Shown piece by piece: positions 34,554-64,000 of a stretch of 64,000 bases of DNA. The DNA is from Acarospora socialis (Eukaryota; Ascomycota; Lecanoromycetes; Acarosporales; Acarosporaceae): NCBI GenBank assembly GCA_025617375.2, contig JAMYGW020000005.1, positions 2,294,001 through 2,358,000 of the forward strand, given 5' to 3'. The translations under genes were made by a program, and so were the position numbers. The notes under the pieces were generated by a model. The model worked only from the letters and a program-made list of their open reading frames with translations, did not search any database and had not been told where the DNA came from. Position 1 is the stretch's first letter, and each line of letters begins with the position of its first letter.

Positions 34554-34935
34554 CTTACCCTTCCCTGCACTACATCCTATAGTGGTTGTATATCAGGTAG
34601 GGCTAGGCATTTAGCTTATTATTGACATAAAATTGCAATGAACAGTGTGTGTAAAAATAATGATGAAGTAAGTTTCACATGATTCACTTCATAACTAAAA
34701 TGATTCTATCAATATAGATATCTTCATAGAGAAATCTATCACATGCTTCACAAGCAACCTGGTGAGCTTCTAAGGTTGACTGCTCATGAGTAACTCAATA
34801 GCAAGTTCTCTCATACACATCTTTCTCTGACAGAATGTCTGTCAGACTCAGATCTGTCTGAGTATGACAGTAACATGAAGCTAGTTGATACTCTTGATAA
34901 GAAGATAGAATTTGTAAGAAGATTATGATTATAAG

Positions 34936-35578
34936 TGTAATGTTTTCACAGAAGATTTCTCTTGTATAAGAACTAAGAATTGTGTTTATTAATATAAAAG
35001 CTGATCTGAAACAGTTCTGATCTTTAATTCTTAGATTGTTATTTAAGTTGAACACAATTCTTTTCATAAGAAAAATGATCATGATTATATACTGAGTCTG
35101 CTTGCTGATCTCATTACTGAGCTCATTGAACTGACTTATTTATGCAATCTGTTGAGCTTACTTATCAAACTCATCATCAAACATATTGAGATGTCACATA
35201 ACTTCTGTCTTAACAGACAATCTGTTAAATGCTTTTTCTGTGTATAAGTCAGTCTGTATTTCATCTTTTTAAGTATAATTATAACATTATTCTTTTTCTT
35301 TTAGATGCTAATTCTCTAGATCTATATAAGTGAGAATATTCACATTGTTTGTCATCAACAATGATGCTTTCTAAAAATTGCAAAGAAAATTCAGATTGAT
35401 AATGCATTCATTTTGTTCTTTTGTGACTATTGTGTCAGTTGTGACATCAATTATTTTGTAATGAAATCTTGATCAAAATGCAATAAGTGTACTCATCATG
35501 ATCATTCATATATCAATGTGTTGTAAAAGTCTCTTGATAAAACTCATCTTTCAATTCAAAAAAAAATAAGTAAAGTAT
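34936..35578 (-). mobile_element. Element C: Ty3/gypsy fossil, 3' LTR and adjoining internal end
   Basis: An LTR-like unit (34936-35286, TG...CA, minus orientation) resembles the LTRs of elements A and B in its end near 35000 (the block around TCATAAGAAAAATGATC and TTCAACTTAAATAAC). The internal sequence to about 35570 resembles the internal 3' end of element B (58900-59250). The rest of the element is missing here; it stops where the copia LTR of element D begins, so D may have inserted in it. Broken; too short to count breaks. Confidence 0.6.
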
Positions 35579-36158
35579 TGAACCTATTGAAAGATAAAAA
35601 GAATACTTGTGCTATACTGCTAACTAACTGTCTATTTAGTGAAATGTACACTGTCAACTTGACTGTGATCAATGTGAGTTATAAAGATTGTCTATTCACA
35701 TACTCTGTCATGTAGATTATATAGATAATGAGTAACTTTTGATGTTAGTTTCAATTAAGATTATAAAAGCAGCTAAAACATCACACTTCTTAACATTCTC
35801 ACTTGATGACACTGCATCTATTGACTTTCACTAACAGCAAGTTTCAGTTGTTCAACAAAGTGCTCAAAGATTCATTTAAATAAAAACTTAATTAGTTCAT
35901 CAGTCATCATATCTTGACTGAACACAAAGTTCACATCAATTTAATTTCACTTGTGCAGATTACAGATATGATGATAGACAATGTTAATATGTTTTAATTG
36001 CTCATGCACATGTGCATTCTTAATCAAAATCAAGACAATCTAATTGTCTTTCTTGAGCTGAAGAGATAAGATTGCTTGATGAGCTTCATTTTTCTTGATG
36101 TTCACACAGTATAAATTATCTTCAAGATACTTACTCATATTTATGTCTTGCAGTATCT

Positions 36159-36484
36159 TGTAATATTCTAATCTGAGATTTCTTGAGTATGTAGAGCTAA
36201 GAGTTTGTGCTTATTGATATAATGACTGGTCTGAAACAGTTCTGGTCTTTAACTCTTAGATGATTATTTAAGTTGAACACAATCATTTTCATAAGAAAAA
36301 TGACTCTACTATATAGAACTGACACACTCAGCATGTTCAGCACACTCTTGTGTTCATTATTCTGATAGTGCTTCAGCACTATTGCATGCTTTGTTAAGTC
36401 TTGTGTTCATTGTTTCATGTCTGAGTGTTTAGTTTCAATTATACTTCTGAGACTGTTCATACTGAATGCAGTATGATTGTAACA
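36159..36484 (-). repeat. LTR of element A (3' side)
   Basis: 326 bp, TG...CA ends, direct repeat of 41972-42297. Confidence 0.85.
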
Positions 36485-39400
36485 TCATTTTTTTCTTCTC
36501 AGACATTTAGTTTCTAGTGTCTATTTAAGTGAGAGTATATATTCTAATTGCTTGTTCATCACTCAGAATGCTTAACAAATTCAAAAACTGTCTTGTGCTT
36601 GCAAAAGTCATTTCTCAGTGTGGTGTCATTTTCTCACTTGCTTGTGAGTGTTGTTGTCATTGTGACATTCTCTGTGTTTGAATGACAGATGCTTTCAAAT
36701 ATGTAAAGTATACTTGTTGTGATTGTTTCTGTGTTTCAATATCTCTTAAGTTGCTGAACTGAGTTCACAAGAAGTTTGAGTCTCAACTTGATGAGATTGA
36801 GACTGAGCATGCTGCTCAGCTTGAAATTCTTTAAAATTTAAATTTCAAAATTCTGCATCTTCATACAACAATAAAGCAGAATAAGTCTTGAATTTTTCAA
36901 AAGATTCAGTGTGTTGCTGTCAAGCTTGACAGTGATAATGATGAAACAAAAAATGAAACAAATTCTTCAACTGATCAAAACTTAAGTCAGTTTATAAACT
37001 CAGTGTCATCATTCTTCTGAAACTCTATTGATCTTTTTTCTCAAAATATTGAAGTGTTCTTGTGCAGTTCTTGAGATTCTTCTTGAGTTCTCAGATATTT
37101 TCTGAGATATCATAATCTTTTCATTTGATGAGATAATAAACTTTTTCATTAATCATTCTCTTTTCTAAAATGTTCTCAACTTCATATTCTTTATTGAATT
37201 CAACAGACATTTCAATGATTTGAAGTGATATGAACTGATTGCAGTGCTGTAGCATGAATGCATGAAATATCAGATGTATTCTCATTTTCTTAAGTAAGTC
37301 TAGCTTATAGCTTAGTTCTTTAATGTTCTGTATGATCTTGAATGATTTAATGCTTTTGCTTTTCAGCTTTTTGCTTTTTTTCTTAGTTCATATGTTGTTC
37401 ATTCTTAGATATACTCTTTCTTCTTCTTCAAATGATTTTGTCTCTGTCATTTGTTCTGTCTGCTGTTCAATTCATCTCATTAGATCTTAATATAGTTTCT
37501 TTATCTAAGCAATATTCAGAATTATTTTTTGACTCTGTGATCTGTGTTCTTTGAGATCTCATCATATCTTCAAATTGTAGTTATAGTTCATATAGAAAGA
37601 TGTTTCTTTCATGATTTTGTTCTTTGTGTTGTTGTATGCAAACTGTGTCATTAACAACAGTCATACTCAGTTGTTCTGAGTTTTGTTGACATAGTGTCTC
37701 AAGTACATCTTTACTGTCTGATTCATTCATTCACTTTGTTCATTTGTCTGTAAGTGATATGTCATTGACATCTTGTGTTTTATTCTGAGTTCTGCTGTCA
37801 GCATTTTTCAAAACTTGCTTGTAAACAGCTTGTTTCTGTTGGTGATAAACTTCTTTGATAGCTTGTGATTGCTAATCAATTCTTGTAGTATTGTGTATGT
37901 CAATATTGATGCTGTCACAGTTTCTCTGAATGAAATGAACATCATGTATTTGATTAATCTGTTCACTATAATCAATATACTATTGAATCTTATTTTTCAT
38001 GCTGAATCTTTTGATGATGACAATTTTGTAATGAAATTCATGATAACTGACTCTCATGATGCATCTGATGCATTCAGTCATGTTACTTTGTTATATCTTC
38101 TATCTTAATTGATCTTGTTTCTTCAGTATGAGTTGCACATAACAATTATCTTAATGACTCAATTTTTAAAATCACTGACATTGCATCTTCTTCACACTAG
38201 ATTCTCAGTGCATTTGACTTTTAGATGTTCTTTAACTCTGTTGTAATGACACATTTTAATGAGTTCTTTGTTCATCAAGAAAGCTTGTTCTATCTTATAC
38301 ATTGCTGCTAAGTTCTTGATGAGAATTTCTTAATTGTCTTTGTTCAAAATTCTGATGTGTATCATTTGTATACTTTCATGATCAGATTATCTGCTCAAAG
38401 CATTTACTTCATTATTCTTATTACTTTTCTTGTAATGTATCTGAAATTCATAATCTACTAACTACTTTGTTCAATGAATCTGTTGTTGATTGAGTTGCTT
38501 TGTTGTTGTGAAGTTTCTCAGATTCTTGTGATCTGTGTAGATCTGAATTGACTTGTTTATTTTTACAAGATAAGATTTTCAATTTTGCAGTGCTTTCACT
38601 ATTTCAAGAAGCTTTTTATCATGAATCTCATATCTTTTCTTGAGTTCTGATAGCTTTCTAGATTGATATGCTATGAATTTTTGCTGCTCATTCTCAATCT
38701 GATACAAACATGCTTTTATTGTAAAATTCAAAGTGTTGATTTTCAGTGTCTTCTCACATGCTGAATTGAATATTCTTAGATGTGCTGTTTCACTAAAACT
38801 TTTCTTTAATATGTGAAATGCATTCTTCTGTTCTTTATCTCAATGTTATTTTTTACTCTTGTGTGTTAAATGCATCAGCAGTTTCACAATTTTTGCATAG
38901 TTTGATACAAACTTTCAATAATAGTTTGTTAACTCTAGAAAGATCTGTACTTTCTTAATTCTTTTTGACATTAATTAGTTTTTGACTGCTTTTATCTTCT
39001 TTGAATTCTTCTTAATCTGTTCAAATCAAATTACATAGTTTAGAAACTCAACTTTCTTGATTTCAAATCTGTTTTTTGACTTTTTTATGTACAGAGCTCT
39101 CTCTTTGAGTCTTGTTAGTATCTTGTACACATGCTTGTGATACTTCTCAAGATCTTCTGAGTATATCAGAATATTGTTGAGATATGTGATCACAAAATTG
39201 TTGAGATATTCTCTTAATGTGTCATTGATTAATTGTTGAAAGATGACTGAGACATTCTTCAGTTCAAATGACATAACAGTATATTCATAATGTCTGTATT
39301 GTGTTCAGAATGCTGTTTTTCATTTTTCATTTTCTTTCATTCTGACTCAATAGTAGATGTTTTTAAGATTTAAGCTTGTAAATCATTTAGTCTTGCTCAA

Positions 39401-41971
39401 TCAGTCTTGTAATTCTTCTATCAACAATAGAAAATAACTGTCTCAATGAGTTATCTTGTTGAGTTGTCTGTAATCAACACATAGTCATTTTTTGTCATTT
39501 TTTTTTGATATGAACAGAATTGAATATTCTGTTGATGATTTCAATGATTTTATGAATTCTCTCTTGAGATTCTCATCAAGATAAGCTCTTACTTTCTTGA
39601 GTTGATCTTTGCTCATTGAGTACAATGATATTCACTTAGATTGCTTTTTGTTCAATAATGATATTTTGTGATTTCATGACTTATGTTCTGATAAGCTCAT
39701 TTCTGATTGTTTGAGAATCTTATATGTATCTTTGACTGCACATATCTCTTTCATAACTCAATTAATTCTCAGATTCTTTTCATGCAATTAAGACATCTTT
39801 AGTATTGTGTTATATTTGATTGATTTCATAACATTGAATGTTATCTCTTGTGAATTTTCAAGAATTGAGACTTTCACACAGATTTTCTCATCAATTCTTT
39901 CAATGATTTCATTTGTCATTCATATGTTGAATGAACAGTGCACTCACTGTGTCACTAATCTCAACATGTTAACTATTTGTTGACTCATAATGTTGCTGTC
40001 TGCTTCAGAATTCATCAATGTGTTGATTTAATGTTTGTTGATCTCAATCTTGATTCATATTCAACAATCATTGTCTTGTCTTTGAGACACCACTAGCTTC
40101 TTATTCTCTAGTCTTGTCAAGAAAGCATTTCATTTTTTGACTTCTTCAGTTCTTCAGCTCATCTTCAAAGTTCTTAAAATTATCTGAGTTTTCTTTTGAT
40201 CATAAGATTTGCATACTTTAGACTGTGCTGCTCAATGCATCTTTTTGAGTGTAATTGAGATTCATACTGATCATACTTCATCTGCAACTGACTCTCAAAG
40301 ACTTTTACTCTTTGCAGAAATTCAAATGATATATATTCTTCACTGAAGATTCATCTGTCTTCATTCTGCATGATATATTTTTCAGGTAAGTATATTTTAA
40401 TTTTGTGGCTCTTTGTTCTTTACACAAGAAATTTTGACATTGATTTTCACATAGTCATTCATACATCTCTCATTAGTTCATCAAATTCTCTGCATGTCTT
40501 CACTCTCTGAGTTTAAACTCTTTGCTTTTTCTTCTGCATCATCTTGCAGTTTAATGTTATTTCTTTTTGAGCACTTAGATCTTTCTTGATCTTTGTTTGA
40601 TACTTCTTTGAGAACTCTGTCTCAGTATTGTTCAAACTTTCTCTTATAAGTGTATTGTTATTGAAAAATATTCATGATTCATCAATCTGAGATTCATGAT
40701 CATCAGTCTCTTTAATGTCATCTTTGAGAACATTGTCTTCTTTCTCAGCATCAAGAACTTTTTTCTTGATAAGAATAGTTAATTCTTTCTCACAAGTTGA
40801 TTGATCTGTCATGTCATATCTTTCTTTGCATGATTTCTGAGAGTATCATCTGACTTCATCTTTTGCACTCATGTGTACTCTGCACATGTTATTGTAGCAG
40901 ACTGTTTAGCTGAGAGTGTCATGCACTACACATATATTCTTCTTGACTGTCACTGCAATATTTTTTCTCTTCATCTGAGATCTGTTGCATTCTCAGACAA
41001 GATGTTCAGATTTTCTGCAGTTGTAATATATTCACATTTTGTTTCACAGTGTTATCTGAGACTTAGTGAATCACTTCATTTAACATTCAAACTTCACTCA
41101 TCTAGTTTTTTATGATTTCTAATGACACTTCTTGATCATATTAAGATTCATAGAATCTGTTCTTCTATGTTTTATTGATAAAATGTATTACTTTAATTAC
41201 AATCAAAAGCTTTCTTCTTGATCTTTTATCATAGATGATATTCAATATTCTTTTTATTTCATCTGTTGTTCTCACTGATGACTATCAATGTTGATACTTA
41301 GATCAATCATTCTTTGAAGATTGTCTGATTGTTTTGCTTGAACTATTTCATCTTTGATGAATTCTCTCAACTCACAGTAGTATTGATAGATAAGTGCTTC
41401 ATCATTTCATTTAATAAGTGTTGCTAACTGCTGAAACTTAATGATGTATACTGCTGCTGATCTATTCTGTCACAAGATGTGAACTTATTTTTTGACTGCT
41501 CTCTCTTCATCAATCATTCTGAAGACTTTTCTTAGCTTTTTTTTAAATCATTCATAGTCATTGAACATAGACTTCACATCAGTATTATGTTCTTTGTATT
41601 TCTTTTCTAGAAACTCATGCAGCTTGAGATCAACTCAATTAAAGACTGCATTCACAAGATAGATTGTTGCAAACAGTGTTTTTTCTTGATTGATTTGAAA
41701 CTTTAATTGATTGAACTCAATGTACAGATTAAACTTAGTCACAAAGACTCACAGCTTTTCTCATTCTTCATCAAAGATATTTAATATCTGTATCTTAAAT
41801 GCACTCAGAAATAGTTGTATAGTCTGAACTGACATCATCATTAATTGTGTCATCATTCTATCTAAAGTAAATAATAAAGATAAGTTTGTCTGAACTTGTC
41901 TCAGAAACAAGATTGAGATGTTTTTCTGTGTGTCAGACATTGTACTTGTTATATCATAAGAGTGTTCAAAG

Positions 41972-42297
41972 TGTAACATTCTAATCTGAGATTTCTCAAG
42001 TATGTAGAGTTAAGAGTTTGTACTTATTGATATAATAATTGATCTGAAATAGTTCTGATCTTTAACTCTTAGATGATTATTTAAGTTGAATATAATTGTT
42101 TTCATAAGAGAAACAACTCTACTATATAGAACTGACATGTCTAGCATGTTCAGCATGTTCTTGTGCTCATTGTGTCAATAGTGTCTCAGCACTATTGCAT
42201 GCTTTGTTAAGTCTTATACTCATTGTTTCATGTCTGAGTGTTCAGTTTCAATCATACTTCTGAGACTGCTCATATCAAATACAGTATAATTATAACA
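41972..42297 (-). repeat. LTR of element A (5' side)
   Basis: 326 bp, direct repeat of 36159-36484; the gag start lies just inside it on the minus strand. Confidence 0.85.
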
Positions 42298-43058
42298 TAT
42301 TTGTGTAAGTCAGACTTCAGTCTTTGCACATATTGACATAATTATATATTCAATTTCTGTAATTAAGATGACAACAGACTTCTGTTTTCAACTTGTTCAT
42401 GATATTAATTTATCTTCAAGCATGTATACATGTTTTAGAATTAACTTTTGATCTTGTTTGTCTGATGCATAGTTAAAGTTGAAATATTTAAGCATGATTT
42501 GACTCTCACTGAGTCTGTACACAATGTTAAAATTGATAATTAATTTCACATATTGCAGCAATTTCTTAAACACATGTTCATGATGTTCTGTGAGATCACT
42601 AAGATATTAACTTAGTTAATTTAAAGCAAAGATGATGTTCAGTCAAGTATGAATCATCATATACATCAGACTTTCAATTGCATGTTAATATTGTTTTTAA
42701 TCTATTCTTTGATCAGCTGAGCTGATGAGATGAAAAACATTATATTTATTAAGTAAAATTGTTGTGATCTTATGCTTGTCAAATTACATATAAAGATCTT
42801 TCAGCATCTTATTTACATAGTGAGTCTGATTTAGATGTAGAGTTTCTCTCTTGTGATTGTGTGTGACTTGTATATCAAGAATTTTCTGTGTCTTCTTCAA
42901 GTTCTTAACTTTGAATATTTTCACAAGAGCTTTCTTGAATCAGAAAACATGTGTCAGACTTGCTGAAACTACAATTATATTGTTTACATAGAGAAGCAGC
43001 ATGATTCTTTTGATGCTGTTGATGAGAAGACATGAGTTAATGTTGCTTTGATAAAAGT

Positions 43059-43220
43059 TGTTATGAAGCATGATCACTTCACATGAGATCATGCTGATTA
43101 AGCATGCTTATTAAGCATTCTCATCACATATATAGTGATCACAGTTCTTTACTCACTTACTCTCTTAACTTACTTATATATTATATCTTAAATCACATAG
43201 CTTAGATTTACACTTTAACA
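43059..43220. repeat. LTR of element E (left)
   Basis: 162 bp, ends TG...CA, partner at 44902-45063. Confidence 0.85.
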
Positions 43221-44901
43221 ATTGATTGCACCAACTGCACAAATTCTTAATTCTTGATTCTTTGATTAGATCAGTCAAGTTTCTACATTTAGTTTTTATT
43301 TACTAGCAAATTCTCATACAAATTATGACACTCAGTACCTGTCAGATCACTTGAAATGGTTTGAATAACATGATGAATAATGATTTGAATTTGACATCAG
43401 TTATACTCACAAACATTTCAAATAAATATGATGAATCAATGATCTCTGAATTCATAAAGATCACACTTACATCATTTAAATCTTTAATCTGCAATAACAT
43501 CAAAAACATTGTCATACAGATTCTTCAGCAGCTAAACATAGTGTTATAAAGCATCTGAGCAAGGTTCTGAAACATTACAAAATGAATTTTAAAATAAGTC
43601 TTCAAATAAGTCTCAAAACAAGTCTCAATATAAGTACTATAGATTTCAAACTCAGTCAGAATGTTATAGAGTGAAAGAACTAGACTTTTTTGATTTTAGA
43701 TCTATGAAAGATGTCTTAATGTCAGAAAGAAAGTCTATAATTTGTGATGTTTATCTATTTGTCAGTTGAATTTGCAAGATAGTTTTAGTTCATAAACTCA
43801 ATGCAGTTAGAAAGAATCTCAGCATGAATCTTCAAGACAAAACTATGAAGTGATATCTAGCTGAATTAACAGTCATGAAATGTATAAATCTTCATAGTAT
43901 TAAGACATGATGTGATGTTCTGATGTCATAATTTACATTTTTGTTGACTGACACTATGATCTCAATCATACACAAATACTACACTCACAACAACATCATC
44001 AATCATCACAAATCTACAGTGTATTTACAGACTATTATTCATCTTTCAACAACAACACACCTGTCTACCTCATCTGCACTAATGATGATCTATTAAAACA
44101 TCAACTCAAATCTTTATCACAATCTCAAGAAACTTATCTCAATAGAGGTCTTTATTCAGGTCTTAAACTCACAAAAAACTATATAATTTAATCTATATAG
44201 TCACTATTGATGATCTCTGAATCAGTCATCATATAAATTTTTATATTGATTTTTAAATTAGTCTTCAAATCAGTCTTCACATTGATGTTACAAAGATTCT
44301 AATTTGAATAATTCTTCATGAAATGCTTGTGTGATCAAGACTTCTAAACTTATGCATTTTACATTTACAAATGAGTTATAAGTTTACAATGTGGTCACTG
44401 ACAATAACAACAACAATGATGATGATGAAAATGCTGTTTATCATGTTGAATATGATGCTTCTACAAATGTCTATAGATTATATTGTTAAATACTTTGTGT
44501 TTGATGTTATTGAATCTTTAAATCAGACAAAGAGCTACAGCAACACAAGTGACTAGATTATGGTGATTTCTAGTGTTTTTTTGACATCAAAATGCATACA
44601 AATTGATGTCTTTTTGACATGACTTGTTACTAGTCTTTATTCATTCATTTCATTGATTTCAGACTCAATTTCACACTCATTTTTGCACACATTTCTATGA
44701 CTACAATGTGTTTTCATTTACATCAAATTCACACTCAAAAACAGTCTTTCTGCACACACTGTGTTATCATTACAATAACAAGATTATGAAAGTGAATTAT
44801 AATGAATTCTAGAGCAGATGAGACATCAGATGAATATAAAACATGATTATAGATAGTTGTCACAGTGAGAGCACTGTCTTTCAGTTTCAAAGAAGAAAAC
44901 T

Positions 44902-45063
44902 TATTACAGAACATGATCACTTCACATGAGATCATGCTGATTAAGCATGCTTATTAAGCATTCTCACTACATATATAGTGGTCACAGCTCTTTACTCACT
45001 TACTTTTTTAACTTACTTATATATTATATCTTGAATCACATAGCTTAGATTTACATTCTAACA
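44902..45063. repeat. LTR of element E (right)
   Basis: 162 bp, partner at 43059-43220, followed by the AAAGT duplication. Confidence 0.85.
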
Positions 45064-48000
45064 AAAGTCTAGCTTATGCAGATCAGTAACACATCATTTA
45101 TGTTAATCTTGCATGACTTACTTCAGATTATAAAGATTACACAGTATATACAGTGTACAGTTAGATGCAATTTGAACTTTAGAAAAAACTGTCATGTAGA
45201 TGATCTTTTTAAGAAAGAATTTTGTGAAGATGTTGTTGATATTTATCTGATGACATTCAAGATTCTTAAGAGCAACAATGACAAAAAAGACTCAAAGAGT
45301 GTTGAACTTGACTGTAAATGCAAAGATGTTCTCATAATCAATGTTATACATCTGTGAAAAATCTCTCATCATAATTTTTGTTTTAAACTTGTTCAGAAAT
45401 TCATCAGTGTTCAGTTTGAGTTTAAACATCTTTTTGCTGATCACTATATTTACATTTTTTGATGATATAATCTCTTCTTATGTTCTGTTGACTGTTAGAG
45501 TCATTAATTCTGTATAAATAGCATTTTTTTACATCTCTTCTCAAACTGAGTCTTTTATTGCTTCAACATAGATAACAGATGTGAAAATGTCAGATCTGAT
45601 ATTCTCAGTATTTTTTTCATTATCTGCAGTGAGTGCTGTAAATATCAGCATAATTCATAATATTTTAATCATAAACTCATCAAAGTCTTCATCATTATTG
45701 TTCTGTTTTCTCTTTGAAATCTTAACACACAAGAATGTTTTAACTTTCTCAGTTAAAATATTTAATGCTTTGCTGACAGAAACTTCAATGTGTAAAAATT
45801 ATTTAATTTCATTCTGTTTATTTGTCTGTAATCTGTTTAAGTTAATTACAGTTGATCTATTCATCATATAAATGTCTGATGAGAATGTATTGAGATTGTC
45901 TGCAGTTAACTTAAACTTTTTTTTGTCATTTAAACTCATGAGTCTGAGTCTGTAAATTTGCTCAAAAACAATAAACAGAGTTGTAGATGCTGCAGAATCT
46001 GTGATGACTGCATTTTTTCATGATTACTTAACTGATTTCTGTTCAGACAGAATGTTTAGTGTTTATTTTTGCAGTTTGAAATCAACATTGTCTTTCTTCT
46101 CATTCTCAATGAACTTTACAACATAACTTTTAATAATTCACTTAAGATCTGAAACTCAAAGCAGATACTGTTTTGTGATTTTATTCACATAGTTCATGAA
46201 GACTCTCACTCATTCTTAATTCATGAACTTGTTCTGTCTGTTCTTCAGCAATGACTTGAGATCAATATAGAAGTAGTACTTGCAATCTCAGACACAAATA
46301 TAATCAATGAATAGCTGCACATCAGTGAAGATCTTCTTCAAAGTTGTTTATCTGTCATTAATTAAGAAATCAGTTGCTGTTCAATTGTGAAGATAGATGT
46401 CAGTAGTGCAATATTCACAATGAGAAGTTAAGTTCTCAGTAGAGATCTATTGAGCTCAATGCCATATAGTAATTAGTATGTAATGAGAAGTCATGACTAT
46501 CAATGTTAAGTGTATAAGTGAAAGTCTGTTATTATTACACTCTAGCTATGTGTGAAAGTTATATAAGATCTAAGTGAATAGACATGACTGAGCAAGCAGT
46601 CAAATAAGCAAAGCATCTAGAGTATAATCATAACAATAAACATCTATTTGTGCTGTCTTCACTCAGAACTTTATTGAAAGTTCTGTTTTTTTGATCATGA
46701 TGTGCACTGAAGTCTCAATAATACAAATGACTCTTTCAGCAACATTATTCTGAATAGATATGTAGAGCATAGTATACTGCAGTGTGATGTTAAAAAATTT
46801 ACATCAGTCATTCAGAATTGATCTTAACTCTGTAACATTGTCACTCTGTACAGCAAGCATTTTCATATTAATTTGAAGCTCAATTTTTAGTCATCACTCT
46901 TGCAGTTTCTGTAAGACATTATTGCATTACTTCAGCAATATTGTTTATATCTTTCAAAAATAGTTGTTCACAATCTTCAGAAAGTACTGATGTTCAGTAA
47001 ATAACAGAAATAAAAAATCACATATATCAATGAAAATCAGAACAAGAATGTTGATCTTTTTCTTGCTCACATTGTGTTCTTGCTGATTGACAAACTTAAT
47101 GAAAACACAAACTTCACAGATGTTCTTCTTGTCTTTAGCAATGAAAATTGACTGCTCAAAAATCATGACTTTATAAAGATCATGAAGCTTTGCAGAGTTA
47201 AAATAAACAAATTGTTGATGTTATAGCTTGTAAATCTTAATCTTTTCACTTGAAAATGAAGTATCAACAGAAGATGAAGTGTCAGCAGAGCTTAACAAAT
47301 CAGTCTGTATCTGAAAGTTCACATTCAGTACTGTGACTGAAAGAGTTATTTCTAAATTAAGTAATATGTGTATGACAGATAACAGAGTGAACTCATTCAG
47401 TTTTTTTGCAATATATTTAATTATATAGACATCATCTCATTCAGACACTTTTATCATGACATTGTTATGTTTATTTCACATATAAAGACTGTGCTGATCA
47501 AAGCTTTTCTGCAATTTCATTTTACACATTTACTTTTTTGACAGAAGATTGACTTCTAATTTAGACATATAAAATGTTGAATTCAGATTCACAAAGTTTC
47601 TGAATTTATTCTGCATGACTGCAACTTCATAGTAGTGTGAGTATAAGTGTTTTTCTTCAACTTTAATTTATCAACATCATATGCATATTAAGAAGTCACT
47701 GAAGAGTTAATGTTGATTAATTATGTGTGTGAAGCATTTAAAGTTCACAATTTACTCAGAGCTGAGTATCTTACTGACAGCTTTCTTAAACAAAGTAACA
47801 ATCTCATTGTTTTTCTCTGCATCAGACTCAGATGAGAATAAATTACTGTTTTTCTCAGTTTTAACATTAAAAGCTTTATGCTTTCTGTTCTTGTGCTTAA
47901 ATCTTATTTTGTCTTTATGATGTAAGTTGTCTGCAGACAATTTGTCTGACTTTTTGACTGACTTAACTGTGATTAAAATAGATAAAATTCTTAACTTAAC

Positions 48001-48970
48001 ATTTTTGTGAGCAGCAAAAAGATATTTACAGTCTCAAATATAATGAGAACTGCAACAGAGAAGACATTTAACTGATTTATGCTAAGAAGAATGATTGTTG
48101 TCAGAGTTTGACAATTTTCAATAATGATATTTCACATCATACTGATATAAGTGTGTCAGATCTTTCTCTTTGTGTTAATCTGTTTACAAGACAGTCTCAA
48201 CAGTTTTTAATTGTATTTTTTTCTCTTGAAGCTTTTGCAGATCTTTCTTGATGTTTGAGATGTTTTAAATGTTAATTGTGTCATGAATCACTGTGTAGTT
48301 CTCAGATAATGCTTGAAGAAATGTTTGAAATTGTTGCTCAGACTTGAATAAATCAGTTATATCAGACTGAATAATCACAATCTTTCTGTCAAGCTTGCTG
48401 AGATGTGTTTATACTTCATTAATAAATACATTTGTCAACATTCTGTATTCAATAAACTCTGTTAAATATTGTTTTTCAGTGATTTGCAGTTTCTTTCTGT
48501 ATTTGAACTTTAAGATATTTCAAGCATTCTTCACATTAATCTTGTCTGCAATATATTTTTAATTATCTATACTGATATAAATGATGAGTTAGTACAAAGT
48601 CTTTATGTCAGACTTCTGACTTTTGAAGTTAAGATTGTTGAATAAAAAGAAAAAGTTACTGACAGAAGTATCAACTGCTAAGATTTTAATGACATATTAT
48701 AGATCTTTATCTATCAGTCATTTTCTCATGAAAGTGAATTATTGATTGCAGTTCTTGCAACTGAGAATTGAAATGAGTCATTGTTTCATGAAAGAGTCAT
48801 TAAAATTCATGATGTAGCTTTTGATGATAGTTGACACATAATATAAAAAATAAATAAAATGAAGTATTAAGATATACAGAAGAAGATAATGTAAATAAGA
48901 GAAAGAAGAAGTGTGTGTGCTTATTTGCTCAATCATTGAGTATCATATCAAGTTGTCAGTAAGTTTTGTT

Positions 48971-49180
48971 TTGCTCAATCTTAAAGCTTCATATTAAGTG
49001 TCAAGAATGTCATTTTGCTCAATCTTTAAGCTCTGTATTGACAGTCAAGAGTGTTTGTTTTAATCTTGTATTAAGCTGTTAAAAGTGTTGTTTTGTTTAA
49101 TCTTGAAGCTCTGTATTGATGACTGATAATGTTTGTTTTGCTTAATCTTTGAGTTCTCATATTAAGCTGTTGAGACATTA
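48971..49180. repeat. Short tandem repeat in the leader of element D (about five units of 33-44 bp)
   Basis: Units of the form TTGCTCAATCTTAAAGCT...GTCAAGAATGT recur with variation at about 48971, 49015, 49058, 49093 and 49137. They lie between the gag region and the LTR of D. Noncoding by position. Confidence 0.6.
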
Positions 49181-49304
49181 AAACAGTATGCACTTTCTCT
49201 GAAAAGCTTCTTGCTAAGTCAGACTCATAATTTATTGAATTTATTGAAAGATAAAAAGAATATTCATGCTATACTGCTGATTAACTATTTATTTAGTGAA
49301 ATGT

Positions 49305-49498: not shown

Positions 49499-49689
49499 GT
49501 TGTTCTCTTTCTTATGTGTCACATTCTCATGACACATATCTTCAGCTGACTCTCTGTTGAAAAAACTTCTTGATGAGAAGAAAAATAGTGAGTAAGACTT
49601 CTTTAATATTCAAAATTTGTGAGAAAAAAAAGTACTAAGACAGTTCTTCAGTTCATTCTAACTTGACTGATACTTCACAGTTTAGTCTC

Positions 49690-49989
49690 AGTGTTCTGCA
49701 AGCTTGTGTCAATGCTTTGCAAACTTATCTTAATGTTTTGTGAACATTCTCTGATGTCTTATGAACACTATGTCTCACAAATTTTCTTTAATCTTTCATG
49801 AACAGCTTCTGATGTCTTATAATCATCTATAATATTTTGCAGATCTTCTTCAATACTCTATGAACTTACTTTCAGTATTTTATGATCATTCACAATGTTC
49901 TGCAGATTTTCTTCAGTGTTTTATGATTATTTTTAATGTTTTGTGAGTCTTCTTCAGTGTTTTATAATCATTCATGATGTTTCACAAAT
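49690..49989. repeat. Degenerate tandem repeat next to the 39-bp array
   Basis: Variants of AATGTTTTGTGAACTTCTTC and CAGTGTTTTATGATCATTC follow each other through about 300 bp. The period is irregular (near 30 bp) and the units are more diverged than in the neighbouring array. Confidence 0.5.
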
Positions 49990-50393
49990 CTTATCTAACT
50001 ACTATGAATGTCTCTAACATCTCACAAGCTTATCTGACTGTTATGAACATTTCTGACATCTTGCAAGCTTATTTAGCTATCACAAACATCTTTAATATCT
50101 TACAAGCTTATTTAACTGTTACAGATGTCTCTGACATCTCACAAACTTATTTAACTGCTGCAAACATTTCTGATATTTTGTAAGCTTATTCAGCTGTTAC
50201 AAACATCTTTAATATCTTGCAAACTTATTTGACTGTCACAAACATTTCTGATATCTCACAAACTTATTCAGCTGCTGCAAACATCTCTGATATTTTACAA
50301 GCTTATTCAGCTGTCACAAATGTTTCTGATATCTCATGAACTTACTCAGTTGCTGCAAACATTTTTGATATCTTGTGAACTTATTTAACTGTG
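49990..50393 (+). repeat. Tandem array of ten 39-bp units
   Basis: Ten consecutive units of 39 bp start at CTTAT(C/T)(T/C)AACTG and end at CTCACAAG-like sequence, followed by a partial unit. 39 is a multiple of three, and on the plus strand the units read as a 13-residue repeat (pattern AYLTxTNISDILQ). The array lies within element F between the integrase end and the 3' LTR. Confidence 0.85.
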
Positions 50394-53385: not shown

Positions 53386-53739
53386 TGTTATATAATTAAG
53401 TCAGAATGAACTTGAGATGAACTGATGCATACATGTGAAGAACATATATTTGAAAAATATTTAGACAGCAGTTACATAACATCTTGACATGCTTGACAGT
53501 GAGCTTGATGAGCAAGCTTGATGAGTTGTATGAATGAGTCATCTTGACAGACTTGATGATGAGACTGATGAGCAAGCTCAGTATATAGTCACAATTATTT
53601 TTCTTATGAAAAGAATCATATTCAACTTAAGTAATCATCTAAGAGTTAAAGATCAAAATCATTTCAGATCAGCTGTTATATCAATAAGCACAAATTCTTA
53701 GTTTTACATATCTGAGAAAGCTCAGATTAAAATGTTACA
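53386..53739 (+). repeat. LTR of element B (5' side)
   Basis: 354 bp, TGTTAT...GTTACA; the last 150 bp or so resemble the LTR of element A while the first part does not. Confidence 0.88.
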
Positions 53740-56700
53740 CTTTGAACATTTTTACAATATAATGAGTACAATGTCTGACACACAGAAGAACATCTCAATC
53801 TTGTTCTTGAAACAAGTTCAGACAAACTCATTTCTATTATTTACTTTAAATAGAATGATAGCACAATCAGTGATGATGTCAGTTCAGATGATACAACTAT
53901 CTCTGAGTGCATTTAAGATACAGATACTGAATATCTTTGATGAAGAATGAGAAAAACTGTGAGTCTTTGTGATAAAGCTCAATCTATACATTGAGTTCAA
54001 TCAGTTAAAGTTTCAAATCAATTAAGAAAAGACATTGTTTGCAGTGATCTATCTCATGAACACAGTCTTCAATTGAATCAACTTCAAGCTGCATGAGTTT
54101 CTGAGAAAGAAATATGAAGAATGCAATGCAGATGTAAAGTTCATGTTCAACAACTATGCACAGTTTAAAAAGAAACTAAGAAAAGTCTTCAGAGTAATTG
54201 ACAAAGAGAGAGCAGCAAAGAAACAAGTTTACATCTTATAGTAGAGTGAATCAGCAACAGTATACATCACAGAGTTTCAGTGACTAACAGCACTTATCAA
54301 ATGAAATAATGAAGCACTCATCTACCAGTACTACTGTGAGTTGAGAAAGTTCATTAAAGACAAGATAGCTCAAGCAAAACAATCAAACAATCTTCAGAAA
54401 ATGATCAATCTGAGTATTAATATTAATAGTTGTCAGTAAGAACAACAGATGAAACAGAAAAAATATTGAATGTTATTTATGATAAAAGATCAAGAAGAAA
54501 GCTTCTGACTGTGAATTAAGTAATATATTTTATTAATAAGATATAGAAGAATGAACTCTATAAATCTCAATACAATCAAGAAGCATCATCAGAAATCATA
54601 AAAGACTAGATGAACAGAGTATGAATGTCAGTCAGAGTGATTCACTAAGTTTCAGATGATATTGCAAAACAAGATGTAAATGTATTACAACTGTGAAAAA
54701 TTCAAACATCTTGTCTGAGAGTGTAACAGATCTCAGATGAAAAGAAAAATGTTGCAGTGATGATTAAGAAGAACACACACATAGTGCACAATATTCTCAG
54801 CTGAACAGTCTGCTACAATGACATGTGCAGAGTACACATGAACACAAAAGATAAAGTCAGATGATATCTTCAAAAGTTATATGATAAAGACATTAGAGAC
54901 AGACACAACACAATAGATTGATCAAACTATGAGAAAGAATTAGCTACTTTCACAAAAGAACATATCAAGAAAGATGTTCTTGATATTGAGATTGAAGAGA
55001 TCAATACTTGAAGAACTCAGATAAAAAAAGACTACAGTAATAGCATTTGACAAATACTGAATTCAGATGTGAATTAGAAAGAAATTAACAAATGAGAAGT
55101 CAATATAAGATTAAAGACAGCATATCAGCATTCTGAAAATCAACACTGAGTATTAAAAGAAGAAAAGCTTCAGTTTAAGAAGCAAGAGCTTGAGCAAGAG
55201 GTACAAGCTTGAAAACAGAAAACACAATGTAAGAGTATGAAAGAACAAAAAACATATGATCAGCTAAAGAAGCTGATGATAGTTATTAAAGATGAATGTT
55301 TCAACAGTGATGATGCAGTATTGTCAAAATTTCTTGTTTGACAAACAAAGAGTCACAAGATCAAGATATGCTTACTCAGAGAAGACATCATGCAAAATAA
55401 AGATAGATGAATCTTCAGCAAAGAATATATATCATTTGAATTTCTGCAAAGAGTAAAAGTCTTTGAGAGTCAGTTGCAGATGAAGTACAATCAGTATGAA
55501 TCTCAATTACACTCAAAAAGACACATTGAGCAACATAGTTTAAAGTATGTGAATCTTATGATCAAAAGAGAATCAAAGTGATTTCAAGAACTTTGAAGAT
55601 GAGCTGAACAATCAAGTGAATTAAAAAACAAAAAACTTTCTCAACAAGACTAGAGAGTAAGAAGCTAGCAACATCTCAAAGACAAAACAATGATTATTGA
55701 GTGTGAATCAAGATCACAATCAATGAACATCATATTGACACATTGATGAATTCTGAAGCAAACAGTAATATTATGAATCAGAAAACAGTCAATATGTTAA
55801 AATTAGAAACATGGTGAGCACACTGTTCATTTAACATATAAATGACAAATGAAGTCATTGAAAGAATTGATGAGAAAGTTTGTGTGAAAGTCTCAATTCT
55901 TGAAAACTCACAAGAAATAACATTCAATGTTATAAGATCAATCAGATACAATACAGTGCTAAAAATGTTCTGATTGTGCAGAAGAAATCTAAAAATTGAC
56001 TGAAGTATGAAAGAAATGTGTGCAATCAAAAACACATATAAGATTCTCAAACAATTAAAGAAGAACTTACTGAAGCATAAGTCATGAAATCACAAAATAT
56101 CACTATTGAACAGAAAGCAATCTAAGTGAATGTCATTGTACTCAATGAGTGAAAATCAACTCAAGAAAGTTAGAACTTACCTTGACAAGAATCTAAAGAG
56201 AGAATTCATAAAATCATCAAAGTCATCAGCAGAATATCTGATTCTGTTTGTATCAAAGAAGAATGACAAAAAATGACTATGTGTTGACTACAGACAACTC
56301 AACAAGATAACTCATCAAAATAATTATTCTCTATCTTTGATAGAAGAGTTGCAAGATCAATTAAACAAGACTAAGTGATTTACAAACTTAGATCTTAAAA
56401 ACACCTATTATCAAGTCAGAATGAAAGAAGATAAAAAATGAAAGACAGCATTCTGAATGAGATATGAACATTATAAATATATTATTATGTCATTTGAATT
56501 GAAAAATGCATCAGTCATCTTTCAGAGATTGATCAACAATATGTTGAGAAAATATCTCAATGATTTTGTGATCACATATCTTAATAATATTCTGATATAC
56601 TCAGAAGATCTTGAGAAGCATTGCAGATATATGTGCAAGATATTAACAAAGCTCAATGAGAGAGCTTTGTACATGAAAAAGTCAAAAAGCAGATTTAAAA

Positions 56701-59259
56701 TCAAGAAAGTTGAGTTTCTAGACTATGTGATTTGATCTAAACAGATCAAGAAGAATTTAAAGAAAATGAAAGCAGTCAGAAACTAATCAACATCAAAATG
56801 ACTCAAGAAAGTACAGATCTTTCTAGAATTGATGAACTATTATTGAAAGTTTGTATCAAACTACACAAGAATTGCAAAATCACTAACACATTTAACACAC
56901 AAAAGCAAAAAATAACACTGAAATCAAGAACAGAAGAATGCATTTCACATATTAAAGAAAAGTTTTAGCAGAACAGCACATCTGAGAATACTCAATTCAG
57001 CATGTGAAAAGACACTGAAAACTGATGCTTCAGATTTTGCAGTAAAAGCATGTTTATATCAGATTGAGAATGAGCAACAGAGATTTATAGCATATCAATT
57101 TAGAAAACTATCAGAACTCAAGAAAAAATATGAGATTCATGATAAGAAACTTCTCACAATAGTGAAAGCACTACAAGACTGAAGATCTTATCTCACAAAA
57201 ACAAACAAATCAATTCAGATCTATACAGATCACAGAAATCTGAGAAACTTTGCAATAACAAAGCAACTCAACTGACAACAGATTCATTGAGTGAAGCAGT
57301 TGATAGATTATGAATTTCAAATTCATTACAAGAAAAATAATGAGAATGATGAAGCAGATGTCTTGAGTAAACAATTTGATCATGAAGATGTACAGACAAT
57401 ACATGTTGAAATTCTGAGCAAAGACAACAAAGAAGTTCTCATAAAAGACTTAGCAGCAATGTACAAGATAAAGCAAGCTTTCTTGATGAACAAAGAACTC
57501 ATTAAAATGTGTCACTACAGCAGAGTCAGTGAATATCTAGAAATCAAGTACACTGAGAATTTAGTGTGAAGAAGATGCAACATTAGTGATTTTAGAAATT
57601 GAGTCATCAAGATGATCACTGTGTGCAACTCATGCTGAAGAAATAAGATCAGCTGAAATAGATAATATGACAAAGTAATGCAACTAGATGCATCAAGTGC
57701 ATCATGAAAATTGATTATCATAGACTTCATTATGAAGCTATCACTGTCAAAGAACTCAGCATGAAAGATGAAGTTCAATAACATATTAATCATAGTGAAC
57801 AAATTAATCAAGTACATGATGTTCATTGCATTCAAAGAAATCATGACAGCATCAGTATTGATGTACATCATACTGCAAGAATTGATTAACAATCACAGAA
57901 TATCAAAGAAGTTTATTACTGACAGAGACAAACTGTTTATAAGTAAGTTTTGAAAAATATTCACAGCAGAACTCAGAATAAAACACAAGATGTTGACAAC
58001 ATATCATTCACAAACAGACAGACAGAGTAAATGAATGAATCAAACAGTAAAAACATACTTGAAACACTATGTCAACAAGAATCAAGACAACTGAGTACAG
58101 TTGCTACTAACAGCACAGTTTGTGTACAATAATGCAAGAAACAAAATCATGAAAGAGATGTCTTTCTATGTGAACTATGACTACAACTCAGAAATATGAT
58201 GAGATTCTAAAGAACATGAATCACAAAGTCAAAAAATGATTTTGAATATTGCTCAGATGAAGAAACTGCATCAAGATTTAACAAAACAGATCAAACAGCA
58301 GACAGAATGAACAATAAAGACAAGATCATTTGAAGAAGAAGAAAGAGTATATCTAAGAATGAACAACATATAAACTAAGAGAAAAAGCAAGAAGCTGAAG
58401 AACAAGAACATTGAATCATTCAAGATCATATGAAATTTTAAAGAGTTAAGTTATGAGCTAGACTTATTCAAGAAAATGAGAATACACTCAGTATTTCATG
58501 CATTCATGTTACAGCATTACAATCAGTTCATATCACTTCAAATCATCAAAACATCTGTCAAACTCAAAGAAGAATATGAGATCAAGAACATTTTAGAGAA
58601 GAGAATGATTAGTGAGAAAGTTCACTATCTCATAAAATGAAAAGATTACAATATCTCAGAAAATATCTGAGAACTCAAAGAGAATCTCAAGAACTGCACA
58701 AGAACACTTCAATGTTTTAAAAAAAGAAGTCAATATTAGTTCAGAAGAATGACAACATTGAGTTAATGAGTTATGATATTGTTTGAGAATCTTCATTCTC
58801 AATTTCATCATTATCACTATTAAGTTCAACAACAAGACAGTTAATCTTCTGCAAAGCACAACAGTTCATCTGATTCAGTGTTTTCTGAAGATGTACAACT
58901 TTTGAGAAAAGTGCAGCAAGCTCAGTGTGCTTGACTGTCAGTTCATCATTTGCTTTACTGATTTTCTTTTGAAGTGAAAGATGAGTTTTATTGAGAGACT
59001 TTCACAATACACTGACACATGAATGATCATGATGAGTACACTTATCACATTTTGATTAAGATTTCATTACAAAACAGTTGATGCTGCAATGAGCACAATA
59101 GTCACAAGAAAATGAGACAGACACATCACTGATTTGAATTTTCTTTGTGATTCTTAGGTGATTTGAATTTTTAGAAAGCATCATTGCTGATAACAAACAA
59201 TATGAATACTCTTACTTATATAGATTCTAGAGAACTAACATCTGAGAAGAAAAAAATAA

Positions 59260-59611
59260 TGTTATGATCAAGTCAGAATGAGCTTGAGACAGACTGATGC
59301 ATACATGTGAAGAATGTATATCTGAAGAATATTTAGACAGCAGTCATGTGAGATCTCAACATGCTTGATGATGAGCTTGATGAGCAAGCTCAATGAGTTG
59401 CATGAATGAGCTGTCTTGATGAGCTTGACAACAAGACTGAAGAGCAAGCTCAGTATATAGTCACAATCATTTTTTTTATGAAAAGAATCATATTCAACTT
59501 AAGTAATCATCTAAGAGTTAAAGACCAGAATCATTTCAGACCAGTCATTATATCAATAAGCACAAACTCTTAGCTCTACATACTTGAGAAAGCTCAGATT
59601 AGAACATTACA
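59260..59611 (+). repeat. LTR of element B (3' side)
   Basis: 352 bp, partner at 53386-53739, followed by the CTTAC duplication. Confidence 0.88.
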
Positions 59612-62600
59612 CTTACACATAGATTCAATTTGTGATCAGATGTTTCACAAGAAAGTCATTGTGATGCTTCTACAATATCTTATTGTGCAAAGCTTTCACA
59701 TGCAGAATATACATCACATCATTGACATAGAGAAGATTTTTTATCTGCATTCAGTTGAGATACTGACTCTCTTTTTTCAATGTCTCAACAGTCTTCAGAC
59801 TCTGAATCATCTTATTTGTAAGAGAATCTATCTGAAGATACTCTGATAGACTTTTTAAAAGAATCTTGCTCATATTTTCATATGTGACTTTCTCTGCAGC
59901 AGCTTCACAAACTTATTATCTATAATCTTTATTCTTTTGATCTGTGCAGTCTGCACTTAGCAGCTGTCTAACTTGCATACAAGTTTGAATGTGCACTTTA
60001 CAGATTACACTTACATTTTGTTCATTCTCTGCAGCAGTTATTGCTGTTGAGAACAGAATTTCTTTTAGTGTTGAGTGATGCTTCATGATAGCATTCTTTG
60101 TTTCAATTTCTCATTGATAATTGACTCTTCAAGATGACTCATTCACAGAATTCATAGTTTTCTTGCAGTACATCATACAGAAGTCATATGCTGATAGCTG
60201 CAGAGTTTATTTCACATGTCTTTGCAACAGCTTATGAAATGATTTTACTATCTAATGCAGATTGTCATGATTGTAAGAATCTTAACTGTGTGTTTCATTT
60301 CTTTGAGATAATGTTGTCAGTGATGAACACTCTCAACTATAACAAGCAGCTTTTCATCATCAGTTTCATAGTTTCTCTTTGCAGATATCATCTTTTGCAA
60401 GTAATATGTGACTGATCTTCAGTCATTGTGTTTTTGCATTAAAATGTCAGATATAACAAATTCTGAGATGTCTGTCTCTACTTGAATTTCTTTCTTTGAA
60501 TCAAAGTGTCTCAGAAAAGATGCTGTTGTAAAAATCTTAATTAATTTGCAAAAAGAATGTGCAGTCTCTGAGATCAGAAATTCTGATATTTGCAAGATTA
60601 ACTTTTTCTTTAAAATGTCTTCACTGTCTTTCAGCATGCTTATAAGTTTCACAGCAATGTGAGAAAATTCATTTATGAATTTTCTATAGAAGTTCATGAA
60701 GTCTATAAAGCTTTGAATTTTAAAAATACTTTTTGACTCTGATCAGTTGAGAATCATGACAATGTAATCTTCTTTCATCTTCACTTCTTTGTCTGTAATG
60801 ATAAATTTCACAAAAAATATTCTTTTCACAGAGAACTGACATTTACTGAGCTTCACATACAGTTCTGCTTTTAAAAGTGCTTCTAAAATGATGTGAATAT
60901 ATTGTTTATATTTATTTTTAATCTTGAAATAAATCAGAATGTCATTCAGAAATATTATTACAAAGATGTTTAGATACTTGTGAAGTATCTTATGAATGTA
61001 TGACTGAAAGATTGTTGATGCATTGATTAACTCAAAAAACATTATCAAGTACTCATACAGTCTGTACTGAGTGCAGAAGACTGTCTTTTCTTTGTTATTT
61101 TTGTAGATGCAAATTCAGTAGTAAATATTCTTTATATCAATCTTCATGAAGATCTTGATCTCATTTATGTAATTCATGATCTTCTCAATTAAAAGTAAAA
61201 AATAATGATTCTTTACAGTAACTGCATTGAGTCTGCAGTAATTGACACATAATTGCAGCTTACTGTTGAACTTAAATGCAAATAGCATTGATGTTCTCAC
61301 AGAAGACTGTGAAAATCAAATAAAATTATTTTTTAAATTTTCATTCAGATATCTCTGAAGCTCTGTGAGCTTCTTTTCTGAGAGATTATAGATAGAGTTG
61401 AAGAGTGAAGTCTATTCATTAATTAAGTCAATAATGTAATTCTGCTCACAGTGCAGAGACAAATTAATAGTTTTACTTTCTGAAAACATCTTCACAAGAT
61501 CACAGTACAGCTTTAAAATTTTTACTTGAGTTACATTATTCTGATTCTTTGTGTGTTCTATACAGACTTGATATATTTGATTTGAATCTTTGAACTCTAG
61601 CTTCTTCATGAGAACTTTAAGATCTAATTCATCACTATTTTCTGACTCTGTGAGATCTTTTACATTCTTTCTTTAAGTGAGAGTTTGCTGAAAGTAACTT
61701 ATTACTGAATTTCTTCAAGTTAATCAGATCACTTCAAGTATCATATCAGATTCTATCTTTGTGATTGTAAGAAGTTTGTGATGTTTGTAAATCTTCTTAT
61801 TGTCATTGTGAATGAAGATCTGTTCATGATACACATTATATGTAATCATTAATTGTTAATTAATATTAACAGCATCTCTCACAGAGAACAGAAATACTAA
61901 ATTTAAAGTTATGACTATGTTCAGATGCAGAAAGTTGATATTATTCTTGCTGTTTATCATTGTTCATAGTTTCTGCTTTGTGAGATATATCATAACTCAT
62001 AGAACTTTTTTTTTGAGAAGATTCAACTGAGAAAATTCATATATCTTGTGTATAATCTCTTTCTTAAAAGACTCTGTTTTTGCAGACTTTTTCTTTGTCT
62101 TTTCAGTGATATTATTCTTCTTTGAGAATTCATATGCTCTGTGAAAGCTCTGTAAGCTTTTTTTGTTTGTGATATTCACAGAAGTTTTATTCTTCTTGAT
62201 GCTTCAGCAGTTTTTTGTGAGATGATTGATCTTGTTACAATTGAAGCACTTAATAGATTGATTTCTATCATTCTGAGAGACTTTTTTCTCAGATCTTGTT
62301 GCAGACTTACTGTTAATTTTTTGAAAAAACTCAAACTTCTTTTGATAAAGTGATGCTTTCTTTTGCTTGTGAAAGAATAGATTGAGTTATAATTTCTTTG
62401 TGAGAATTATCATGTTTTCTTTAATATTAAACAGCTCTGATTATTTACAAATCTTCTTGTGCATGAGTTTGTTCAGACTGCAATAGAAGAGTATGACTTA
62501 AATCTTGTTTGTTTTGTTTACTTTGCTCTTTATCTGAAATTGAAGTTCATTATAATGATGAAGATATTTCTCATCTGACTTCTCATCTCTTTTACTTGCT

Positions 62601-63467
62601 CACAATCACTTTATTCAGATATTATGAGTTCAATTTGTCTTATCTTCTAATAAATTCTTCAAAAATTTCTTCAAGAATTCTCATTCTTCTGCAAGCTCTT
62701 TCTCTTTACAATACATCTTTCATTGATTTATGATAAAGTAGTGTAGATAACAGATCATCTCTGAATACTAAGTCTTCTTTGACATGTTCTCTGTACTGAT
62801 ATTCATCTGATGACAAAAATCACAGTAATGACTGTAGATACTGTTCTTATAAAGATCTGCATTCAAAAGTATCTTTATGAACTGAGTTCATTTAACTTCA
62901 CAATCTATCTTTAGATTCACAGATTCAGAGCAATTATGTTTAATTTGTGCATAAAGTTGCAGATTTGTATGCTCTTACTCTGCAAGCTGAATTCTTAACT
63001 TTAATTTGTGAATTACAATATTTTCTGAGAACTTCTCAGATTCTGATGTCTCTGTGAAAGTGTTTACTATTTTGTGAAGAAATTCTTTGCTTTTTTGCAA
63101 AGTATATCTGATCTCACAAACAACTTCTTTAAGTTTGCAAACTTACTTGTTGATCTCACAGAATATGATTTGTGTCTTATGAACTTTGAGTTTATTCTTT
63201 TTTTTTTTTTCTTCTTCATCATTTGATATTTGTGATATGAAGTTCTCATTACTTTCAAGTTTGTCAGTAACTAATTCATGAACATCTTCAGTGAAATCAT
63301 TCACAGAGACTTCAAACTTCTTTAGATGCTCAAATTTCTTTTACATTACAGAATTTTTTGATTTCACTTCTTTCACTTACATGATTCTTTCTGTTCTTCA
63401 CAAGAATTGTTTTGATTTTGAAGTCATTACTGAGTAACTGCTTTACAATAAATTAAAGTGACAATAC

Positions 63468-63661
63468 TGTGAGACTGATCTTGACAGTTATGTGATAATG
63501 AACTTTAAGAGTTGAGATGCATAAATAGAATTGTTGCTAGTATTTGCAAAAGAAAAAGTGTGCACTTTTATCTCTTTGCAAAGACTGACTTATTAAGCAT
63601 ACTAACTACACAAGATCTCACAAGAAAGTTCTAGCTCTTCACAAACTGAAGTGAGCTTACA
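63468..63661 (-). repeat. LTR of element F (5' side)
   Basis: 194 bp, partner at 49305-49498. Directly abuts element G at 63662. Confidence 0.85.
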
Positions 63662-64000
63662 TGAAGTCTATAAAGCTTTGAATTTTGAAAATACTTTCTG
63701 ACTCTGATCAGTTAAAAACTGTGATGATGTGATCTTCTTTCATTTTCACTTCTTTATTTATAATGATAAACTTCACAAAAAATATTCTTTTCACAGAAAA
63801 CTGACACTTGCTGAGCTTCACATACAGTTTTACTTCTAAGAGCACTTTTAAAATGATGTGAACATGTTATTCATGTTTATTCTCATTCTTGAAATAAATC
63901 AGAATGTCATTCAGAAATATTATCACAAAGATGTTTAAATACTCACAAAGTATCTTGTGAATATATGACTGAAAGATTGCTGATGCATTAATTAACTCAA
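63662..64000 (-). mobile_element. Element G: Ty3/gypsy reverse-transcriptase fragment, runs off the window
   Basis: Closely similar, in the same orientation, to 60696-61034 of element F (reverse transcriptase and start of RNase H region), so it is a second copy of the same family. It starts abruptly at the LTR end. Broken. Confidence 0.75.

Follow-up and report, generated by a model that had tools for sequence, protein, structure and literature searches.

In Neurospora and in most of the ascomycetes studied, repeat-induced point mutation (RIP) prefers cytosine in the dinucleotide CpA (PMC2621366, PMC7862722), and an explanation for the cause of the dinucleotide preference of RIP was not found in those parts of the literature that we examined. 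For Uncinocarpus reesii, the predicted RIP site is CpG rather than CpA (PMC4165359), with a gain of CA and TG (PMC7862722), and for Coccidioides, mutation of CpG in association with repeats has been mentioned (PMC4014442). In Rhizoctonia solani AG8, CpC is the commonest class of C-to-T single nucleotide polymorphisms (SNPs), with one SNP every 214 bp genome-wide and every 301 bp in repeats, while the respective spacings amount to 370 and 583 bp for CpG, 422 and 490 bp for CpA, and 491 and 539 bp for CpT, all of them uncorrected for dinucleotide abundance (Table 2 in PMC4014442). The authors of that study call the process CpG-biased; it is partial and affects genes and repeats alike (PMC4014442). 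A system with CpC as the main target of RIP was not found in the portion of the literature searched.

The locus presented here lies in a 64-kb window, i.e., the whole stretch of DNA that was analyzed, and our observations rest on this one locus (Table 1). Reading by eye had led to the original prediction that CpG is absent across 29 kb, and counting confirmed this: the interval 34610–64000 (29,391 bases) contains not a single CpG, with ~1836 expected at the density of the left flank, the gene DNA of which serves as a proxy for the ancestral composition of the elements in all figures for expected sites. CC and GG occur 32 times in this interval, 13 times as CC (12 ACC and one GCC) and 19 times as GG (18 GGT and one GGC). 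The claim that all of them are ACC or GGT with the exception of one GCC at position 46461 on the plus strand was therefore correct for 30 of the 32 and overlooked a second GCC, present as GGC at position 40407 of the plus strand and thus located on the minus strand. When both strands are compared with the density in the flank, none of ~1036 TCC and none of ~849 CCC, two of ~1003 GCC, and 30 of ~955 ACC remain, such that the fraction of CpC left depends on the preceding base (3.1% for ACC, 0.2% for GCC, and 0% for TCC and CCC). ACG, CCG, GCG, and TCG are all absent from the block, and a T in front of CpG is therefore not required.

CpA and CpT had been described as plentiful, and they are indeed not depleted: their observed/expected (O/E) ratios in the block are 1.59 and 1.27, next to 1.54 for TpG, 1.03 for GpC, and 0.02 for CC, while in the flank (1–33600) the values for CpG and CC are 0.92 and 0.95. 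The GC content is 29.7% in the block versus 52.2% in the flank. For comparison, GC-poor tracts in Blastomyces average 29.6 and 31.0% and the GC-rich part has ~46% GC (PMC4595289), versus the 52% of the flank reported here. Base composition alone fails as an explanation, because 200 single-base shuffles of the block contained 650 CpG on average and never fewer than 596, and CC plus GG averaged 1291 with a minimum of 1213, compared with 0 and 32 in the actual sequence. The depletion is present in each of six sub-intervals counted in 34608–64000, among them two different reverse transcriptase sequences, which excludes the ancestral composition of a single family. In the comparison with positions 1–33600, CpG as well as TCC, GCC, and CCC are thus near zero, just as anticipated, whereas the anticipated survival of ACC near expectation was not found, as only ~3% is left. 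The rule proposed at the outset, that C is lost before G and before C unless A precedes, accordingly holds for its main part, but ACC is lost slowly and not spared.

Table 1. Coordinates of the saturated block, its border and flank, and the elements recognized within the block.
Feature	Position	Strand	Characteristics
Gene-rich flank	1–33560		Control and stand-in for the unmutated state; 52% GC in 1–33600
Border part 1 (outer)	33561–33947		CpG 0, TCC 0, GCC 3, CCC 1, ACC 9 (~12.5 expected at gene-side density)
Border part 2 (inner)	34223–34607		3 CpG, ACC 8, CCC 8, GCC 6, TCC 5 (both strands); less depleted than part 1
Saturated block	34608–64000		0 CpG, 2 GCC, 0 TCC, 0 CCC, 30 ACC (both strands); continues past the right end of the window
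Ty3/gypsy element A1, broken	36159–42302	-	LTR-like ends 36159–36490 and 41972–42302, 86% identical; reverse transcriptase and RNase H in 36900–39900, minus strand
Unit with the least diverged LTR-like ends	43053–45064		Ends 43053–43221 and 44896–45064, 91% identical; 11 of the 30 surviving ACC/GGT
Depleted sequence without firm assignment	45065–53390		Includes 39-bp tandem array at ~49948–50415
Ty3/gypsy element A2, broken, inverted copy of A1	53391–59614	+	LTR-like ends 53391–53742 and 59263–59614
Gypsy-type sequence B, broken	60600–63000	-	Reverse transcriptase; zinc-knuckle match below Pfam cut-off

Comparison of the window with itself and matches to protein domains identified the block as an assembly of nested, broken Ty3/gypsy elements. 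The elements A1 and A2 are each 6.1–6.2 kb long, their interiors are 82% identical, and direct terminal repeats of 332 and 352 nt are located ~5.8 kb apart, as is typical of the LTRs of Ty3/gypsy elements. Domain searches with translated pieces in which stops had been set to X yielded RVT_1 (9.1e-18), RT_RNaseH (7.4e-18), and RT_RNaseH_2 (7.4e-16) for a piece of A1 and RVT_1 (1.8e-13) for element B, the latter of which did not match A1 or A2 in the self-comparison of the window. Judging by its ends, the unit at 43053–45064 may be the youngest insertion. The tandem array within the depleted block consists of about ten units of 39 bp. Relatives of the reverse transcriptase were not found among viral contigs, and three were found among plasmid records. 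Two of these, NZ_CP065944.1 (10855–11163) and NZ_CP065945.1, are labeled as Bacillus licheniformis plasmids, encode a gypsy-like reverse transcriptase, and look like eukaryotic contamination; CpS depletion, i.e., depletion of C before G or C, is absent from both (O/E of 1.13 and 0.92 for CpG and of 0.80 and 1.13 for CC). The third, a gypsy-like reverse transcriptase with 32.5% identity at 1737–2189 of NZ_CP087956.1, a 5.3-kb record labeled as a Wolbachia plasmid, is possibly an insect retroelement. Searches of the window gave neither matches to Rfam at gathering scores nor tRNAs.

The flank encodes an amino-acid transporter, DAHP synthase, glycerol-3-phosphate dehydrogenase, a Uba4-like protein that matches PDB entry 6yub, which we take to be Uba4 from Chaetomium, and a glycogen debranching enzyme in a single frame of 1524 codons, two relatives of which are present in phage records. 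Judged by eye, the genes have short introns, and together with the PDB matches this points to a filamentous ascomycete. Pieces of a Tc1/mariner-like transposase reside in two frames at 28182–29592 on the minus strand (HTH_Tnp_Tc3_2 at 3e-10, DDE_3 below cut-off) and are unmutated (O/E of 0.94 for CpG and 0.96 for CC), and so is an open frame of 375 codons for a MuDR-type DNA-binding domain and CCHC zinc knuckles at 22911–24035 on the plus strand. Repeat copies fill the block and the composition of the flank is normal, and yet these Tc1-like and Mu-like sequences at a distance of ~5–12 kb from the block, which may or may not be repeated, imply that the mutation left some mobile elements untouched.

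Full depletion begins at ~34608, in good agreement with the start at 34610 given in the original prediction, but to its left lies a border with partial depletion that had not been recognized. This border comprises 772 bases in total and is interrupted by an unmutated insert. The latter (33945–34222) resembles a MITE, its inverted ends match over 22 bases, its CpG and CC are at normal levels, and it looks as if it either arrived after the mutation had taken place or was too short to be targeted. The ratio of ACC to CpG in the whole border is 17:3 versus 387:749 in 20000–32000 (Fisher p = 5e-6, each CpG counted once). In the unit at 43053–45064, 11 of the 30 surviving ACC/GGT are concentrated in 2.0 kb where 2.1 would be expected (binomial p = 2.5e-6 for an interval picked after the cluster had been seen). 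Intermediate stages are thus visible in the border and in this unit, and they suggest that loss likely proceeded from CpG and TCC to GCC and CCC, with ACC coming last, an order that is based on small counts. The outer part of the border is more depleted than the inner part (0 versus 3 CpG sites), a pattern not predicted by a simple leak from the block, and the four CC classes are alike in the inner part (8, 8, 6, and 5).

The direction of change was deduced from comparisons between copies. Eight aligned and partly overlapping pairs contain 1089 transition columns, made up of 165 TG/CA pairs that contribute two columns each plus 260, 11, 341, and 147 further columns, versus 121 transversions, in accordance with the C:G to T:A transitions that characterize RIP. 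LTR pairs are identical at insertion, and the 107 transition columns and six transversions in the 852 aligned columns of the three LTR pairs must therefore have arisen in place. Transversions account for 65 of the ~630 differences in the larger interior, and most of the divergence between A1 and A2 is, according to the simulation described below, explained by the CpS mutation process. TG/CA alternatives between copies mark ancestral CpG and occur 330 times when both strands are counted. CTG/TCA makes up 55 of these (0.167), which points to ancestral CCG in which both CpC and CpG were targets; the corresponding share in simulations is 0.158 for a CpS target and 0.04 for CpG only. CTG/CCA was seen twice and TTG/CCA once, the latter adding little because it needs a surviving CC. 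The loss per copy over the eight pairs is 0.13–0.15 for CpA and 0.17–0.23 for CpT, with 0.04–0.14 in the three LTR pairs. Two codons of the reverse transcriptase, which we take to specify tryptophan on the basis of known motifs, are TGA in A1 as well as in A2 (GG to GA), whereas TAG would be expected from RIP of the CpA type; the residues at these positions are different in element B, which is uninformative in this respect. In-frame stops are TGA in 32, TAA in eight, and TAG in three cases in A1 and in 15, six, and two cases, respectively, in B, compared with 2380, 1584, and 536 when all frames of the block are counted.

Six models with hand-set rates were run starting from the sequence of the flank; the models were not matched for GC. 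The block was reproduced best with rates of 0.2 for CpS, 0.08 for ACC (0.4x), and 0.005 for CpW (0.025x) over 40 rounds, a setting that, as the best of the six hand-set models, reached a cosine of 0.997 over the 64 triplets at a total variation of 0.036, a GC content of 0.294 versus 0.297 in the block, a copy identity of 0.832 versus 0.82 for the interiors, and 20.6 TG/CA per kb versus 23.7 observed. Among the five earlier models, CpS alone gave a cosine of 0.950 and CpS plus weak CpW one of 0.996. Full exemption of ACC was rejected (cosine 0.984), as it leaves 394 ACC on one strand of 33.6 kb versus 12 observed in 29.4 kb, and so was a target restricted to CpG (0.930), which leaves 1403 CC in 33.6 kb. 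A model in which CpG is lost fast on top of an elevated uniform rate (0.848), one with C-to-T change at a uniform rate (0.920), and one with a Neurospora-like order, likewise not GC-matched (0.681), were also discarded. Methylation of the CHG type was dismissed, as CCA and CCT are nearly gone as well, whereas CpA and CpT survive. The rule is that C before G or C is lost, that a preceding A slows the loss of CpC, and that CpA and CpT are weak targets. The original idea of a C-to-T process that acts on repeats in an unusual context and does not prefer CpA is thereby backed by counts, copy comparisons, and simulation.

With the excess of transitions, the hierarchy of contexts, the saturation, and the partly hit border established by counting, we consider it probable that the block is a nest of retrotransposons destroyed by RIP-like, active C-to-T mutation of repeats with CpS as the target, a preference more or less opposite to that of Neurospora. 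Such a process would change C:G to T:A on both strands of repeats at cytosines preceding G or C, it would be slowed at CpC by a preceding A, it would hit CpA and CpT at least ~30-fold more weakly, and it would have run until its targets were nearly exhausted. It would presumably be enzymatic and triggered by repeats; the candidate catalyst is a RID/Masc1- or DIM-2-type cytosine methyltransferase with altered target preference, and the sexual cycle, as in Neurospora, would be the probable stage of action. RIP in Neurospora stops once copies have diverged, and the exhaustion of targets is therefore unusual for RIP.

In the whole block, none of ~1885 expected TCC and CCC remains, which is equivalent to a hazard above 6.4. 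The ratio of CpS loss to transversions, calculated with a block-wide hazard and with the flank standing in for the ancestor, is ~1829 for the LTR pairs (~840 if their transversions are set to 13, the upper Poisson bound), while the two interiors yield 710 and 996 and the I3 pair yields 276. Passive deamination of 5-methylcytosine typically elevates C-to-T changes tens of fold above other changes, and because the observed ratios exceed this range, they favor active mutagenesis. Prolonged methylation at CpG and CpC by an enzyme of the DIM-2, DNMT1, or DNMT5 type, followed by spontaneous deamination of 5-methylcytosine and with no premeiotic mutagenesis involved, would easily explain the exhaustion of targets through its continuing action, and the border could then reflect spreading of methylation; Tuber keeps CpG-preferring methylation of transposable elements with no signs of RIP (PMC4165359). 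Still, such passive decay is unlikely in our view, given that CpS loss exceeds the transversion rate ~276- to 1829-fold in the various pairs, with the LTR figure derived from six transversions, and that CpC is lost as fully as CpG, which is unexpected for a CpG maintenance enzyme.

We find it distinctly improbable that two processes were at work, namely RIP directed at CpG, of the type reported for Uncinocarpus, and an additional activity on CpC exerted by a second methyltransferase or a deaminase. All CpG is lost from border part 1 while nine of ~12.5 expected ACC persist, and the loss of CpC is graded by the preceding base, as two activities might produce; but TCC and CpG vanish together in that same part (0 each), a single CpS rate fits the statistics of the pairs, and a CpG offers a target on each strand and can hence disappear faster even when no second enzyme is present. 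Although the AT-rich sequence is contiguous and stems from one locus, an artefact of AT-rich ancestry or of assembly or sequencing bias is hardly credible, as stop-riddled frames still match reverse transcriptase families, copies differ by TG/CA and CTG/TCA alternatives, shuffles keep at least 596 CpG, and GpC is at expectation.

Active, CpS-directed mutation of repeats as the preferred reading allows a further, more tentative step: it is quite possible, though we would not yet rely on it, that the machinery with which a filamentous ascomycete lineage mutates its repeats has shifted its target from CpA to CpS, in a near inversion of the order in Neurospora and so efficiently that all CpG and nearly all CpC not preceded by A were consumed. 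If this were true, sequence data would reveal that the specificity of RID had been exchanged in nature, or that RID had been replaced, and genomes of this type would have escaped surveys of RIP that rely on the standard CpA indices. The TpA/ApT index is 0.66 in the block versus 0.75 in the gene flank and (CpA+TpG)/(ApC+GpT) is 1.60 versus 1.15; both standard indices thus rate the destroyed block as less affected by RIP than healthy genes and point away from RIP, and surveys using them may undercount mutation of the CpS type. Enzymes of the RID and DIM-2 types from a species whose preference is clean, saturated, and almost the opposite would offer a direct test of what sets the dinucleotide choice of RIP.

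The novelty of the pattern is limited by the CpC-led SNP table for R. solani AG8 and by Stagonospora nodorum, in the repeats of which CpC and CpG are likewise depleted, but next to a dominant depletion of CpA and a gain of TpA (PMC2621366). Basidiomycete hypermutation as in Microbotryum and AG8 resembles the process described here in converting CpG to TpG, and AG8 also leans toward CpC and CpG genome-wide; in AG8, however, mutation is partial and hits both genes and repeats, whereas depletion of the block is near complete and the gene flank is normal. Pucciniomycotina prefer TpCpG (PMC4014442), whereas here every NCG is gone and the genes look ascomycete. MIP in Ascobolus immersus (Masc1) shares the repeat-triggered targeting of cytosine; it is methylation without obligatory mutation (PMC4165359), whereas mutation is near complete in the block. 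The CpG-directed RIP of Onygenales is similar in that CpG is absent and CpA and TpG are gained. In our own reading, it is a CpG-only target that leaves CpC near expectation, unlike the O/E of 0.02 for CC found here, and the part of the literature examined yielded neither loss of CpC nor slow ACC for Onygenales, in which CpC may nevertheless be lost. With classical, RID-dependent RIP of Neurospora crassa, the process has in common that C:G is changed to T:A on both strands of repeats and that AT-rich blocks of dead transposons lie beside normal genes. It is RIP-like and falls outside classical RIP on account of CpA: the block retains most of its CpA and CpT, and it is CpG and CpC that are exhausted.
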